This document shows positions 48,643-53,319 of a stretch of DNA of 64,000 nucleotides, one piece after another. Position numbers and translations under genes: made by a program. Position 1 is the first letter of the stretch. Every line of letters begins with the position of its first letter. A model generated the notes under the pieces. That model saw only the letters and a list, made by a program, of their open reading frames with translations, searched no databases and was not told the DNA's origin. Source of the DNA: Agrococcus sp. Marseille-Q4369 (GTDB taxonomy: Bacteria; Actinomycetota; Actinomycetes; Actinomycetales; Microbacteriaceae); assembly GCF_018308945.1 (NCBI RefSeq), contig NZ_CP070501.1, forward strand, positions 496,001 through 560,000, read 5' to 3'.

Positions 48643-48826
48643 TCACTCCGCCATGCGCTCGCCGGCGGGGGAGAGCACCCACCACACGTCGTTGACGCCC
48701 TGGCCCGCGACGTCGCCCGCCGCGGAGTCGCCCGCGAAGTCGTAGAGCGGCCAGCCGTTCAGCGTCACCTGGGTCGCGCCGTCGACGCCGACGATGGTGC
48801 CGAGCTCGCCCGTGGCGTCGTGCTCG
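48643..48826 (-). pseudogene. Remnant of a COG4315-type lipoprotein repeat gene
   Basis: The last about 55 codons before the TGA at 48643 keep the conserved pattern of the secreted lipoprotein repeat (YxFxxD) family: QVTLNGWPLYDFAGDSA, then GQGVNDVWWVLSPAGE. Normal members have a signal peptide, a lipobox and at least two such repeats in 150-200 residues. Here the frame continues upstream only into sequence antisense to another gene remnant, without signal peptide, lipobox or homology. The next possible ATG would give a 95-residue chimera. I therefore call it a 5'-deleted pseudogene. Confidence 0.55.
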
Positions 48827-48859
48827 TGCCGATCGCGGTCGCCGCCGGCGAAGCGCTCG

Positions 48860-48976
48860 CGGCCGTCGATCGTGCTCGCCGTGCTCGCGGTCGTGGCCGC
48901 GGCGGGCTCGACCGCCATGGTCGTCCTCATCGGCGACTCGGGCGCGCGCGCCGTCTGGGGCGGGATCCTCGTCTGA
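48860..48976 (+). pseudogene. Remnant of the C-terminal end of a membrane protein (DUF2231-like)
   Basis: The plus strand reads SIVLAVLAVVAAAGSTAMVV and then LIGDSGARAVWGGILV before a TGA at 48974-48976. This resembles the last helix and the (I/V)GDSGA(R/K)AVWG end of DUF2231-type membrane proteins. The beginning of any such protein is absent; the frame upstream is arginine- and serine-rich noise. It lies tail-to-tail with the COG4315 remnant, so one deletion may have removed the 5' parts of two convergent-facing neighbours. The family call is tentative. Confidence 0.4.
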
Positions 48977-48982
48977 GGTGCC

Positions 48983-49348
48983 TCAGCCGAAGCGGAGGCT
49001 CGAGCGGGCCACGACGCGAGCGCCCGCGTCGATCCACGGGATCGGCCCCGTGGTGAGAGCAGGGGAGGGGCTGCCCGCCGCGAACGCGGCCTGCGCCGCC
49101 CGCAGCTCCCCGAAGCGACCGAGCGAGCGACCTGCGCCGTCGACGGCGACGTACTCCTCGAGCGTCTCCTCGACGAAGCCGAGGAAGGTCGTGCCCTCGA
49201 CGCCGCCGCGGCTCGCGACCCACAGGCCGTCGCCCGGCGACGCCCACGTGATGCGGCCGGATGCGTCGTCACGACCACCGCCACGGCGCTCGTCGAGCGC
49301 GTGGAGACCGGGAGCAGAGACCTCGGGCCGAGTCAGCGTGTCGGTCAT
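48983..49348 (-). CDS. Hypothetical 121-residue protein divergent from a MarR regulator
   Basis: A 121-residue soluble protein I do not recognise. After a polar N-terminus it has ITWASPGDGLWVASRGG, TTFLGFVEETLEEYVAVDG and a stretch RFGELRAAQAAF, which resembles a small beta-rich domain. The start at 49348 has AAGGAG 6 bases upstream; an overlapping earlier ATG ends after two codons. Two palindromes lie in the shared promoter region with the MarR gene, so it is probably controlled by that regulator. Confidence 0.7.
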   Translation of the reverse strand: MTDTLTRPEVSAPGLHALDERRGGGRDDASGRITWASPGDGLWVASRGGVEGTTFLGFVEETLEEYVAVDGAGRSLGRFGELRAAQAAFAAGSPSPALTTGPIPWIDAGARVVARSSLRFG

Positions 49349-49375
49349 GTCATGCTCCTTCTTGCGGATCGTTAG

Positions 49376-49406
49376 TTCGATGATCGAAATGTATCACGTT
49401 CGAACG
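49376..49406. promoter_or_regulatory. Two palindromic operators in the MarR divergon
   Basis: TTCGATGATCGAA (49376-49388) is a perfect inverted repeat around one G, and CGTTCGAACG (49397-49406) is a perfect 10-bp palindrome. Both contain TTCGA half-sites and their centres are about 20 bases apart, two helical turns. TAGGGT (49408-49413), the likely -10 of the marR gene, begins two bases after the second palindrome. Binding there by the MarR protein would repress both genes. Confidence 0.6.
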
Positions 49407-49448
49407 GTAGGGTGTGCGCAGGACGGACAGACCCGATGGAGGAGCGGC

Positions 49449-49973
49449 ATGACCCAGATCGACGCGCGCGGCACGGCGAGCTCGGGCTACTGGTACCCGG
49501 GGCACGGTCGGCCGACGAGCGTCGACGTGCTCAACCTGCTGCGGCGCTACCGTGCCGCGGAGGCGCAGATGCGGGCACGCACCCGTGCGTCGATGGGCAT
49601 GGGCGAGACCGATCTGCTCGCGCTGCGACTGCTGCTGCAGGCGGAGCGGCGCGGCGAGGTGCTGCGGCAGCGCGATCTCGCGTCGGCGCTCGGGCTCGCA
49701 TCGCCCTCGGTGACCGCGCTCGTCGACCGGCTCGTCGAGAGCGGCCACGTGCGCCGCGAGCCGCACCCGGACGACCGGCGGGCGACGATCGTCGTGCCGA
49801 CGAAGGACACCGATGACGAGGTCCGCGCGACGCTCGGCGCCATGCATCGGCGGATGATCGACGTGATCGACGCGATGGACGACGAGCAGACCGAGGCGGT
49901 GGCCGGCTTCCTCGATCGCATGGTCACCGCGGTCGAGCACGTCGACGAGCACGACGAGGCTTCTGGCGCGTAG
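49449..49973 (+). CDS. MarR family transcriptional regulator
   Basis: A 174-residue winged-helix regulator. The DNA-binding part is about residues 50-105: METDLLALRLLL-like helix, LRQRDLASALGLASPSVTALVDRL (recognition helix) and the wing RREPHPDDRRATIVVPT with the family D-x-R-D-R-R. N- and C-terminal helices form the dimer interface. Ligand unknown. TAGGGT at 49408-49413 gives a short leader and GGAGGAG stands before the ATG at 49449. It is divergent from the 121-residue gene and likely autorepresses through the two palindromes between them. Confidence 0.88.
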   Translation: MTQIDARGTASSGYWYPGHGRPTSVDVLNLLRRYRAAEAQMRARTRASMGMGETDLLALRLLLQAERRGEVLRQRDLASALGLASPSVTALVDRLVESGHVRREPHPDDRRATIVVPTKDTDDEVRATLGAMHRRMIDVIDAMDDEQTEAVAGFLDRMVTAVEHVDEHDEASGA

Positions 49974-50025
49974 CATCCGGGGCGCGCGGGGAGTGCCAGC
50001 GGCCAGGGCCGCGTAGGCTCGACGA

Positions 50026-50526
50026 GTGAAGACCAGCAGCCTCTCCGGCGGCGCGCAGCTGCGCCGCGCCCAGCCCGGCGACGAGCCGGGCATCCTCGCG
50101 ATGATCCACGCGCTCGCGGTCTACGAGCGAGAGCCGGATGCGGTGGAGAACACCGAGGGGATGCTGACGGCGACGCTCTTCGGCGACGAGCCGCGAGCCT
50201 TCGCGCACGTCGTCGAGCGCGACGGCGCGATCGTCGGCATCGCGATCTGGTTCCTGACGTACTCGACATGGACGGGCACGCACGGCATCTGGCTCGAGGA
50301 CCTCTACGTCGACGAGGCGCAGCGCGGCCGCGGATACGGTCGAGCGCTCATGGCGGCGCTCGCCGCGGAGTGCGTCGAGCGCGGCTACCGGCGCTTCGAG
50401 TGGACGGTGCTCGACTGGAACGAGCCGTCGATCGGGTTCTACCGCTCGATCGGCGCCGAGCCGCTGGACGAGTGGACGACGCAGCGCCTCACCGGCGAGC
50501 GGCTCGAGGCGCTCGCGCAGCGCTGA
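50026..50526 (+). CDS. GNAT N-acetyltransferase (SSAT/thialysine acetyltransferase-like)
   Basis: A 166-residue GNAT-fold acetyltransferase. Motif A is LEDLYVDEAQRGRGYGRALMAAL (about residues 92-114) with the acetyl-CoA loop RGRGYG; motif B includes FEWTVLDWNEPSIGFYRSIGAEPLDEW, which closely follows the pattern of the spermidine/spermine or thialysine N-acetyltransferase group. The amine substrate cannot be assigned. The start is GTG at 50026, six bases after TAGGCT (50014-50019). The dif-like site begins 35 bases after its stop. Confidence 0.88.
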   Translation: MKTSSLSGGAQLRRAQPGDEPGILAMIHALAVYEREPDAVENTEGMLTATLFGDEPRAFAHVVERDGAIVGIAIWFLTYSTWTGTHGIWLEDLYVDEAQRGRGYGRALMAALAAECVERGYRRFEWTVLDWNEPSIGFYRSIGAEPLDEWTTQRLTGERLEALAQR

Positions 50527-50560
50527 CGCGGTGACTCGCTCCTCTCGGCGACTCCCGTGA

Positions 50561-50588
50561 AGCGCCGATAATGCGCATTATGTCCGAT
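50561..50588. other. dif-like Xer recombination site
   Basis: An AT-rich island in GC-rich DNA with the layout of a Xer site: a left arm ending GATAA, a 6-bp centre TGCGCA (50572-50577), and a right arm starting TTATGTC. Within it, 50568-50581 is a perfect 14-bp palindrome. Against the actinobacterial dif consensus as I remember it, the blocks CCGATAAT (50565-50572) and ATTATGTC (50577-50584) match completely and about 22 of 28 positions agree overall. It could be the chromosome dimer resolution site or a Xer-mobile module site. It lies between a GNAT gene and a VapBC module. Confidence 0.6.
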
Positions 50589-50648
50589 CGGTGAGATGCC
50601 GTATCGCTGCCGTCTCCCCTCAGCGGCCACCTCGCTCGCCGCCTCGAC

Positions 50649-51047
50649 TCACTCGCCTGCGCAGGGATCGAGCGTCGCGAGGCCCATCTGTGAAGCGACC
50701 TCGAGCATGCGGGCGTCATGCGAGACGATCACGAGGTCTTCGATGCCGGATCGCAGAGCGGTGCCGAGGTGGATCGCGTCGAGGGCGCGCACGTGCGGCA
50801 CGATCGCCTCGGCCTCGATCAGCACGGCGTGATCGATCGGGATCACGCCGACGAAGTCGAGCACCTCGTCGCGCTCGGCGAACGGGATGCCTTCGCGTCG
50901 CGCGAGGCGCGTGAGCTCCGTCTTGAGCAACCGGGACGAGACGAGCTCGTCCGACTCGGCCGCGTCTACGAACCACGCGACCGCCGTCGGCGAGTGCCGC
51001 AGCATCGCACGGCCGGCGACGGATGTGTCGAGGTAGAACGTCGTCAT
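50649..51047 (-). CDS. vapC: PIN-domain toxin VapC
   Basis: A 132-residue PIN-domain ribonuclease, the toxin of a type II module. The acidic metal-binding residues are visible: Asp in FYLDTSVAGRA (about residue 7), Glu in RLLKTELTRL (about 44), Asp in VRALDAIHLGTAL (about 91) and Asp in VSHDARML (about 109). VapC enzymes cut tRNA or rRNA when freed from the antitoxin. The ATG at 51047 shares its A with the antitoxin TGA (TGATG); a GTG at 51050 is the alternative. It ends about 60 bases from the dif-like site. Confidence 0.9.
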   Translation of the reverse strand: MTTFYLDTSVAGRAMLRHSPTAVAWFVDAAESDELVSSRLLKTELTRLARREGIPFAERDEVLDFVGVIPIDHAVLIEAEAIVPHVRALDAIHLGTALRSGIEDLVIVSHDARMLEVASQMGLATLDPCAGE

Positions 51048-51295
51048 CACTCCCCCCGCAGGTCGTCCAGCAGCTCGTCGATCGATGCGGCCGTCCGCAG
51101 CTCATGCCGAGGGAGCGACGCGAGGTTCGGTCGGCCCGTGCGCTTCGGCGGGATGATCTGGGTCGACGCCGCAACCGGCTCGACGCGGGCGATCGGCCGG
51201 TTGTACGACGTGATCGTGTAGCTCTCCCCCGACTCCACGTCCCGCAGCATCTGCGCGGGATTCTGGCGGAGCGCGCGGACGGACACGTTCTTCAT
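51047..51295 (-). CDS. vapB: Phd/YefM-type antitoxin VapB
   Basis: An 82-residue antitoxin. The N-terminal DNA-binding part is MKNVSVRALRQNPAQMLRDV, followed by GESYTITSYNRPIARVEP, the Phd/YefM pattern (strand-helix with a conserved N-P and R-P). The C-terminal segment, with ASIDELLDDLRGE, is the acidic toxin-binding tail. It is followed directly by vapC. The ATG at 51295 is set by TACAAT (51307-51302, minus strand) 6 bases upstream, which is the best -10 in the window and lies inside a 25-bp palindrome, so repression by the VapBC complex is expected. Confidence 0.88.
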   Translation of the reverse strand: MKNVSVRALRQNPAQMLRDVESGESYTITSYNRPIARVEPVAASTQIIPPKRTGRPNLASLPRHELRTAASIDELLDDLRGE

Positions 51296-51300
51296 GCCCT

Positions 51301-51325
51301 GATTGTAGGTCATTGATCTACAATC
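51301..51325. promoter_or_regulatory. 25-bp palindromic operator of vapBC containing the -10 and a neighbouring stop codon
   Basis: The 25 bases form an inverted repeat around position 51313 in which 11 of 12 pairs match; the outer arms are GATTGTAG and CTACAATC. The left arm carries the leaderless -10 TACAAT of vapB on the minus strand. The right arm carries the TAG stop of the DUF4192 gene (51320-51318). On the plus strand the other arm offers a mirror TACAAT, but it faces only a three-codon ORF. Confidence 0.75.
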
Positions 51326-52076
51326 CGCGATGGCGCGGTGACGCGTCCACACGGGCCGCTGCGGTCCACGTCGGCACCCGCTCGCCGAAGAGCAGCATCA
51401 GGCTCGGCACCATCGCGTGGCCGCGATCGATCCCTGCGGCCCTCACGAGATGCGCCATGGCGTCCGCTCGCTTGCCGAGCGCCCAGAGCAACCAAGCGAC
51501 GGCGCAGAGCAGCGCCGGCTGCATCTCCTCGGGGGCGTGCGCCGCAGACCACCGAAGGAGAGCGATGCCTCGGATGGTGCGGTCGCGATCGGGCACCCTC
51601 TGCGTCTCACCGCGCAAGCACCGCCCGACATGCACGTCCGGAAGCGCCCCCTTGGCGACGAGCTGCCGGACGTGATCGTCGACGGCGATGCCGAGCTCGA
51701 CGGCGTGGTCGACGATCCGCGTCACGTGTCGGAGGTGCTCCGTCGCCAGCCCGCGACCGAAGGCGACCTGCAGCGCGAGCTGCTCGGGCACGCTCGGCCA
51801 CTGCGCGAGAGCGACCAGCATCGCGATCTGCGGCAAGCGTGCACTGCGCTCGTCCCTGAGCGAGTCCTCGAGGATCCCGATCGACATCGCCAGCGCGACG
51901 CCATGCGGCGTGACCTGGAACCACGGGCGCTGGTCCTCGTCGTCTTCGACATCCGTCTCCACGGGCTCTACGAGCGCACGGACGACCGCCGACGCCCTGA
52001 TGCTCACCTCTTCCGCCACCCGCGGATCCGCTTGCGGCAGTGCCGCCCCGAGCGTCTGACGATCGTGCTGCAGCAT
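51318..52076 (-). CDS. DUF4192-domain protein, short form
   Basis: A 252-residue protein whose C-terminal half has the DUF4192 helical pattern: a segment reading ALLRWSAAHAPEEMQPALLCAVAWLLWALG (about residues 165-195, given in parts), then RADAMAHLVRAAGIDRGHAM. Full actinobacterial members are, as I recall, some 350-400 residues with an N-terminal half beginning near a VPxLLGY-like element, which is absent. CACAGT (52089-52084, minus strand) stands 7 bases before the ATG at 52076, so the short form could be expressed. Its last residues run into the vapBC operator. Function unknown; composition is less GC-extreme than its neighbours. Confidence 0.62.
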   Translation of the reverse strand: MLQHDRQTLGAALPQADPRVAEEVSIRASAVVRALVEPVETDVEDDEDQRPWFQVTPHGVALAMSIGILEDSLRDERSARLPQIAMLVALAQWPSVPEQLALQVAFGRGLATEHLRHVTRIVDHAVELGIAVDDHVRQLVAKGALPDVHVGRCLRGETQRVPDRDRTIRGIALLRWSAAHAPEEMQPALLCAVAWLLWALGKRADAMAHLVRAAGIDRGHAMVPSLMLLFGERVPTWTAAARVDASPRHRGL

Positions 52077-52193
52077 GCCGGTCACTGTGGCCGAGTCCTG
52101 CCGATGCGCGCGGCAGCGAGCGGTCGTCCTGTGGAGGGACGTTGACTGCGCTCCTTCCGGCAAGCGCTCGCGCGCCGGCGCTACGATGGCGCC

Positions 52194-52355
52194 ATGCAGC
52201 TCCTCGTCGCCGCCTCCGCCGCCGCCCACGACGCGGGCATCCCGCTCGACGACCCGATGAACCTCTTCATCATCGCCTCGAGCCTCGTGACGGCGCTCGC
52301 GTTCGTCGGCATCGCCGGCGCGTTCGTCATGACGGCGCTCGGCCGCGCCGACTGA
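52194..52355 (+). CDS. Small single-helix membrane protein, 53 residues
   Basis: A 53-residue protein with an Ala-rich N-terminus, the polar segment HDAGIPLDDPM and one membrane helix (about residues 23-47, LFIIASSLVTALAFVGIAGAFVM). No family recognised. TACGAT (52182-52187) lies 6 bases before the ATG at 52194, the same leaderless layout as at confirmed genes, and third positions are GC-rich as in coding DNA. It sits between the DUF4192 gene (divergent) and the MpaB-type gene. Confidence 0.65.
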   Translation: MQLLVAASAAAHDAGIPLDDPMNLFIIASSLVTALAFVGIAGAFVMTALGRAD

Positions 52356-52401
52356 CCCCAGAACGCGCGGCTCGCACAGCGTCGGCTGGCATGCTGACGG
52401 C

Positions 52402-53319
52402 ATGGCGATGAGGCTGCGCGCGCGACTGCTCGAGGCGCTCGCCGGCGACCCCGAGGGCTCCCCAGCGTGGATCCGCGAGCTCGCCGAGGGCGACGACGCG
52501 GGCCACTTCGCCGAGGACGGCGCCGCCTGGACGGTGCACGGCAGCATGGCGACGCTCGTCGCCGGCATCCGCGCCCTGCTGCTGCAGGCGCTCCACCCCG
52601 GCGCGATGGCCGGCGTGCACGACCACTCGACCTACCGGCAGGATCCGCTCGGCCGCCTCTCCGGCACCGTCCGCTGGGTCGTGTGCCTCACCTACGGCTC
52701 CACCGCGCAGGCGGAGCGCGAGACGGCGCGCGTCGGCCGCTTTCACAGGCGCGTGCAGGGCGCCTACGTCGACGGCCGCGGCGCCGAGCGCGCCTACAGC
52801 GCCGCCGACCCGGGCCTGGCCGACTGGGTGCACCTCGCCTTCGCCGACGCGTTCCTCACGTGCCAGGAGACCTGGGGCGAGCGGATGCCCGGCGGCGGCC
52901 GGATCCCGGGCGGCTCCGACGCGTACGTGGCCGAGTGGGCGACCGCAGGTCGGCTCATGCACGTCGACGACCCGCCGACGACCGCGGTCGAGCTGCGGAG
53001 CCGCATCGACGGCTACCTCGAGCGCGGCGAGCTGCGCAGCGACGAGCGCGTGCGCGAGGTCGTCTCGTTCCTGCGCCGCCCGCCCGTCGGCGGCGTCGCG
53101 GGCATCGGCTACCGGCTGCTGTTCGCCGGTGCCGTCGCGACGCTCCCCCGCCGCTACCGGCAGCTGCTCGGCGTGCGCCGCTCCCCCTTGCCCGTCGTCA
53201 CGCTCACGCGCGTCGTGCTCGCGATCGCGGGTCGCGCGCTCGCGAGCGGCGAGGGCAGGCGCGCGCAGGACTGGGCGCGCCTGCGCCTCCGCCGGCTCGA
53301 GCGGGAGCGCGCCGCGTGA
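52402..53319 (+). CDS. MpaB/DUF2236 family oxygenase-like protein
   Basis: A 305-residue protein of the DUF2236 family, which contains the heme-b rubber-cleaving oxygenase Lcp and the fungal MpaB oxygenase. Features are the early GIRALLLQALHPGAMAGVHDHS segment (His residues about 65-75), the DPLGRLSGTVRWV region, and the VGRFHRRVQG motif (His about 115, a likely heme ligand by analogy). The rest is alpha-helical. Whether it binds heme is untested. CATGCT (52390-52395) stands 6 bases before the ATG at 52402. It overlaps the following small membrane-protein gene by 4 bases. Confidence 0.85.
   Translation: MAMRLRARLLEALAGDPEGSPAWIRELAEGDDAGHFAEDGAAWTVHGSMATLVAGIRALLLQALHPGAMAGVHDHSTYRQDPLGRLSGTVRWVVCLTYGSTAQAERETARVGRFHRRVQGAYVDGRGAERAYSAADPGLADWVHLAFADAFLTCQETWGERMPGGGRIPGGSDAYVAEWATAGRLMHVDDPPTTAVELRSRIDGYLERGELRSDERVREVVSFLRRPPVGGVAGIGYRLLFAGAVATLPRRYRQLLGVRRSPLPVVTLTRVVLAIAGRALASGEGRRAQDWARLRLRRLERERAA

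Follow-up and report, generated by a model that had tools for sequence, protein, structure and literature searches.

The 28-bp element at positions 50561–50588 on the plus strand, composed as AGCGCCGATAA-TGCGCA-TTATGTCCGAT, is very probably the chromosomal dif of Agrococcus sp. Marseille-Q4369, the site at which XerC and XerD would recombine. It lies in a 64,000-nucleotide stretch of DNA, hereafter the window, that corresponds to positions 496,001–560,000 of a single-contig genome of 2,737,735 bp, and it marks the likely terminus of the chromosome, which the sampled GC skew does not. That the site is the chromosomal dif, and that the window spans the terminus, was the first of two readings offered by the initial annotation, and it is supported by the uniqueness and conservation of the sequence, its profile score, its place approximately opposite dnaA, the presence of genes for an XerC-like recombinase, XerD and an FtsK gamma domain, and a polar motif that switches strand at the site. 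Being almost certainly a chromosomal dif, the site is an ordinary example of an already known class; of more interest than dif itself are two by-products described below, a polar motif and dif-like sites on plasmid-like contigs.

The sequence of the window at 50561–50588 is AGCGCCGATAATGCGCATTATGTCCGAT. The element has the arm–6 bp–arm design that had been ascribed to it, with 11-bp arms of inverted symmetry on both sides of the centre (an 11-6-11 layout). Alignment with the dif of Frankia alni and with the dif sites of the family points to a left arm at 50561–50571, presumed to be the XerC side, and a right arm at 50578–50588, presumed to be the XerD side, whose outer bases TCSGR are the usual form in the genus; the 6-bp central (crossover) region TGCGCA occupies 50572–50577, all three parts being read on the plus strand. 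The central 14 bases (50568–50581) do form a perfect palindrome, which is unremarkable by itself because the window contains 26 perfect 14-bp palindromes; the unusual part is the match to dif. An agreement with actinobacterial dif at about 22 of 28 positions had been estimated, and the published Frankia alni site, which PMC3025954 gives as CACGCCGATAATGCACATTATGTCAAGT, is indeed identical at 22 of 28.

The rarity of such a match can be stated in two ways. When up to three mismatches are allowed, a core pattern of 21 positions finds one site in the window as opposed to none in 100 dinucleotide shuffles. Under a profile made from 29 family dif sites with listed loci, with the present site left out, the element scores 44.2 bits, and the training sites, scored on the profile that includes them, reach 42.6–53.3 bits. 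The runner-up in the window is the site’s own opposite strand at 10.3 bits, no second Xer site was found there by the profile, and none of the 33 further genome stretches that were scanned with it contained a match above 8.1.

Conservation was followed through genus, family and class, with the present genome included in the genus and family counts. Agrococcus is a genus of the Microbacteriaceae, in the class Actinomycetes, which fits the family named in the initial annotation. The genus form GCCGATAATNCRCATTATGTCSGR occurs with at most two mismatches in all 24 genomes of the genus, 18 of which carry it at zero mismatches, so the outer-arm bases that are unlike those of Frankia are mostly the genus norm. 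Across the family the core is found at two or fewer mismatches in 283 of 299 genomes, 16 having no match, and a reversed control pattern matched in a single family genome (G015). The comparison with family dif sites that the initial annotation had called for comes out in its favour: the site fits the family profile, and the core is family-wide. Of the 197 class genomes searched, 145 also contain the core at one mismatch or fewer, and 52 gave no match. It is against this background that a chance palindrome resembling dif has to be judged, a reading to which the 26 palindromes of the window lend some color and which we nevertheless regard as vanishingly improbable, given the empty shuffles, the near-universal core in the family and the motif switch at the site.

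The sites also vary in ways that deserve mention. The centre is TGCACA in 21 of the 24 genus sites, and the fully palindromic TGCGCA is a minor form that recurs in one other genome of the genus (G497) and at two loci in other genera (L025 and L030). Two genomes of one genus (G254 and G292; loci L032 and L033, at approximately 1450–1525) have a second, inverted dif-like site with another centre, 47–48 bases from the main site, possibly a scar or an accessory Xer site. Two genera of the class, among the 52 genomes without a match, gave no core match at one mismatch or fewer, one of 19 genomes of 6–11 Mb (f20 g107) and one of 13 genomes of 1.3–1.8 Mb (f24 g111), and linear chromosomes or an altered dif are possible explanations.

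A search for a second copy, which had likewise been suggested, found the core once in the genome at zero mismatches; there was no match elsewhere with fewer than three mismatches, and two other candidates differ at 3 of 17 specified bases. The dnaA match is at 1,795,452, which places dif 1,248,887 bp away, or 45.6% of the chromosome, with the exact antipode of dnaA approximately 120 kb off from the site. Twenty-nine relatives were searched for dnaA, and the arc between dif and dnaA comes to 37.5–49.9% in seven with exact lengths (the value for G049 being based on its longest contig and not on a closed genome) and to 40.4–49.0%, from rounded sizes, in eight further single-contig relatives. GC skew over 23 sampled stretches is weak and noisy, with no clear extremum at the site, and a crude count of open reading frames agrees with the earlier remark that gene orientation does not visibly switch there.

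The strand asymmetry of short motifs is more informative on the position of the terminus. Octamers were counted on samples of the genome, with the two chromosome arms split at dif and dnaA, and CGGGGGAG ranked first, with 68 copies directed toward dif and 7 away. Genome-wide, CGGGGGAGC occurs 152 times, and 149 of these copies point from the origin to dif: the 84 copies on the minus strand are all confined to 549,142–1,777,261, and 65 of the 68 on the plus strand lie in the opposite arm. A two-break fit of CGGGGGAGC orientation, made without assuming dif, accounts at its best for 150 of the 152 copies and puts one break at 522,295–549,142, an interval that contains dif, and the other at 1,777,253–1,793,485, immediately ahead of the dnaA match. 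The shorter GGGGGAG narrows the switch to the 2.4 kb between 544,667 and 547,050 (window 48,667–51,050), with the site inside, and across 394 kb it is aimed at dif in 98 of 100 copies.

Within the window itself the polarity of GGGGGAG is complete, in that all 17 plus-strand copies are to the left of dif and all 9 minus-strand copies are to the right. The octamer CGGGGGAG, as the candidate FtsK-orienting motif, is present on the plus strand at 11 positions, all left of dif (370, 3354, 11616, 25680, 26295, 31609, 34844, 38336, 40471, 41468 and 48666), the one at 48666–48673 being the last rightward copy before the site. Beyond dif, the first leftward GGGGGAG is at 51050–51056 on the minus strand and the first CGGGGGAG at 51224–51231, also on the minus strand; the latter opens a series of six minus-strand octamers to the right of dif (51224, 53143, 53553, 58861, 59400 and 62757). 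Any gain in density toward dif is modest: counts of CGGGGGAGC in successive 200-kb bins from dif are 37, 20, 26, 21, 18 and 19, with 11 in the incomplete last bin, and the density of CGGGGGAG is 0.13 per kb in 300 kb of far samples and 0.16 per kb near dif.

The immediate surroundings of the site are where the second reading of the initial annotation has to be weighed. On the left is a plus-strand gene for a GNAT acetyltransferase (50026–50526; Pfam PF00583). On the right, two overlapping minus-strand genes encode a VapC-like PIN-domain protein (50649–51050; Pfam PF01850, with no NCBIfam match) and a Phd/YefM-type antitoxin (51047–51352; NCBIfam TIGR01552 above its cut-off and Pfam PF02604 just below), and the VapC frame ends 60 bases to the right of the site, the distance that had been given for the toxin–antitoxin genes. 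Farther out, two of the three places where the initial annotation saw broken or shortened genes were scanned: the open reading frame at 48643–49284 has a Pfam Lipoprotein_15 match over 42 of 213 residues, and the one at 51318–52568 has no Pfam match. A minus-strand frame at 51318–52078 also has no Pfam match, and the second half of its translation reads protein-like; it may encode a diverged protein and not be a broken gene.

What is constant in the genus loci compared is the left side. A MarR gene, a GNAT gene or both adjoin dif on the left in all five genus loci compared, and a GNAT homologue is found within 1.5 kb of dif in three of five other genus dif loci when 3 kb of each is considered (L019, L020 and L021). 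VapC is distributed otherwise: any VapC match at all was obtained in 7 of the 24 genus genomes, the present one included. In G049 the match is 17 kb from dif, and in G265, G485, G493 and G501 the match does not share a contig with dif. A proximity of VapBC to dif that is special to the present genome was considered and rejected, for in G492 pieces of VapC (C4:82018–82258) lie approximately 80 bases from dif (82340–82363), arranged as in the window, which makes at least 2 of the 24 genus genomes. Two VapC pieces without a similar middle part were noted in G265, and two more VapC-like matches, far from dif, in the present genome.

According to the second reading, the site would be an Xer-mobile, pdif-type site that carries VapBC as a module, or formerly did so. 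The short distance to the VapC frame, the similar arrangement in G492 and the co-occurrence of dif modules with toxin–antitoxin terms in the Acinetobacter literature that was accessible all speak for a module of this kind. Against them stand the patchiness of VapC (7 of 24 genomes, when dif is in 24 of 24), its removal to 17 kb or to another contig in five of those genomes, the MarR and GNAT genes that keep to the opposite side of dif, and the lack of any second site, whether at fewer than three mismatches in the genome or by profile in the window. In the absence of such a site an Xer-mobile module is without support, and we consider this reading very unlikely; VapBC is probably an incidental neighbour of dif. 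Somewhat less likely again is that the site is an attachment scar, left by an integrated phage or IMEX that brought along a dif-like site, and that the genuine dif is at another place. IMEX are elements that use dif, and the existence of dif-using elements is what gives this explanation its footing; it is opposed by the fact that the genome has no other dif, by the same MarR and GNAT neighbours in five of five genus loci and by the convergence of the polar motif at the site. IMEX are named in PMC5357621.

A chromosomal dif at 50561–50588 would be served by proteins that the genome encodes. XerD is recognized at 340.2 bits, above the model cut-off of 329.6, and a second recombinase is XerC-like in that its top model is XerC at 309.6 bits, under the equivalog cut-off of 335.15, the assignment to XerC being by best score. 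There is one FtsK gamma domain in the genome. From what is established for Xer and FtsK, the sequence of events can be pictured as follows: a dimer would arise when sister chromosomes cross over an odd number of times; FtsK at the septum would pump DNA toward 50561–50588, steered by the polar motif GGGGGAG; FtsK would then activate XerD on the right arm; and XerC on the left arm would finish the strand exchange over the 6-bp TGCGCA centre, resolving the dimer. The binding of the recombinases, the assignment of arms to them, the order of strand exchange and the reading of GGGGGAG by FtsK are all inferred here from that established knowledge.

The motif was found in the present genome, and other genomes serve as independent tests of it. 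In four relatives from the family, examined over 100 kb on either side of dif, CGGGGGAG heads the octamer ranking, alone or jointly, and in each of the four dif falls inside the GGGGGAG switch interval, with 55 of 55, 59 of 60, 61 of 62 and 58 of 59 copies directed toward it. A wider set consisted of 20 genomes belonging to 13 other families, hand-picked for long contigs and varied families among the 145 with a core match and examined over 20 kb on each side of dif. GGGGGAG is the top 7-mer in this set, with 343 copies toward dif and 13 away, and every one of the 20 genomes has more copies toward than away. In 19 of the 20, dif falls within a best switch interval; one of these (G395) has two tied intervals, of which one contains dif, and another of the 20 (G301) has 4 copies only. 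In the genome that misses (G380), the interval begins at the edge of dif, 25 bases beyond the reference point. The polarity is also centred on the site, as the ratio over the same 20 genomes drops to 277:79 or 273:83 when the reference point is shifted by 5 kb, and to 241:115 or 239:117 when it is shifted by 10 kb.

The E. coli consensus GGGNAGGG was considered as a terminus marker in the same material and rejected as weakly polarised. It is directed toward dif in 26 of 36 copies in the present genome and in 11 of 15, 9 of 20, 13 of 24 and 13 of 16 copies in the four relatives, and its pooled ratio in the 20 genomes of other families is 123:76, with 15 of the 20 leaning toward dif.

PMC13342612 counts a switch of motif strand at dif as a structural hallmark of FtsK/XerCD. 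The simplest view of GGGGGAG is therefore that it is an FtsK guide in these bacteria, and we put forward (C)GGGGGAG as a candidate actinobacterial KOPS, with the FtsK reading inferred. In the open-access literature that was searched, no named actinobacterial guide motif came up in the text available to us; this literature included PMC3025954, PMC5993296, PMC13342612, PMC11898615, PMC13277299, PMC11537254, PMC3148964 and PMC5357621, and Nolivos 2012 and Hendrickson and Lawrence 2006 lie outside its scope. It is important to stress that calling the motif class-wide is an extrapolation, because it was counted solely in genomes with a dif match. Overall, the motif is a strong candidate for the sequence that guides FtsK in Actinomycetes, and a replicated one.

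Some members of the family have dif-like sites on separate, plasmid-like contigs (L153–L161 and L164–L166), and in these the arms are conserved and the centres are variable, or free. Fourteen such stretches were taken, and two (L162 and L163) were dropped for want of a site under a strict pattern; for L153, which has two sites, the first was used as the reference. In the 12 stretches, from 10 contigs of 56–213 kb, 71 of the 80 GGGGGAG copies are directed toward the site and 9 away from it; the site falls within a best switch interval in 10 stretches (a tied one in two of them) and outside it in 2. Two of the 10 contigs were checked for plasmid genes, and a TrwC relaxase was seen on one and a T4SS coupling protein on the other. 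The polarity of the motif suggests that FtsK-guided dimer resolution operates on mid-size conjugative plasmids. Taken as one proposal, then, we think it somewhat more probable than not that GGGGGAG, in its strongest form CGGGGGAG, is what orients FtsK across the class Actinomycetes, unlike the E. coli consensus, and that family plasmids of 56–213 kb have their own free-centre dif-like Xer sites at which this motif is likewise aimed, which would extend FtsK-guided dimer resolution to mid-size conjugative plasmids.

How the site and its motif stand relative to known Xer systems can be set out in three comparisons. With the chromosomal dif of other actinobacteria, for which PMC3025954 gives predictions in 66 of 66 Actinobacteria with a single chromosome and says, as of 2011, that no example with experimental confirmation was available, the site shares its 28-bp 11-6-11 structure, the CCGATAA...TTATGTC arms, its occurrence once per chromosome and its location near the terminus; from the Frankia alni dif it differs in outer arm bases and in one base of the centre, which here, as TGCGCA, is fully palindromic. 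The pdif sites and dif modules of Acinetobacter, as far as the available sources describe them, resemble it in that a dif-like Xer site is close to toxin–antitoxin genes, whereas here there is neither a pair of sites nor a module, only a single chromosomal terminus site. Finally, the motif is like the KOPS of E. coli in being short, G-rich and on the leading strand, with a strand flip at dif, and unlike it in sequence, since (C)GGGGGAG departs from the consensus.
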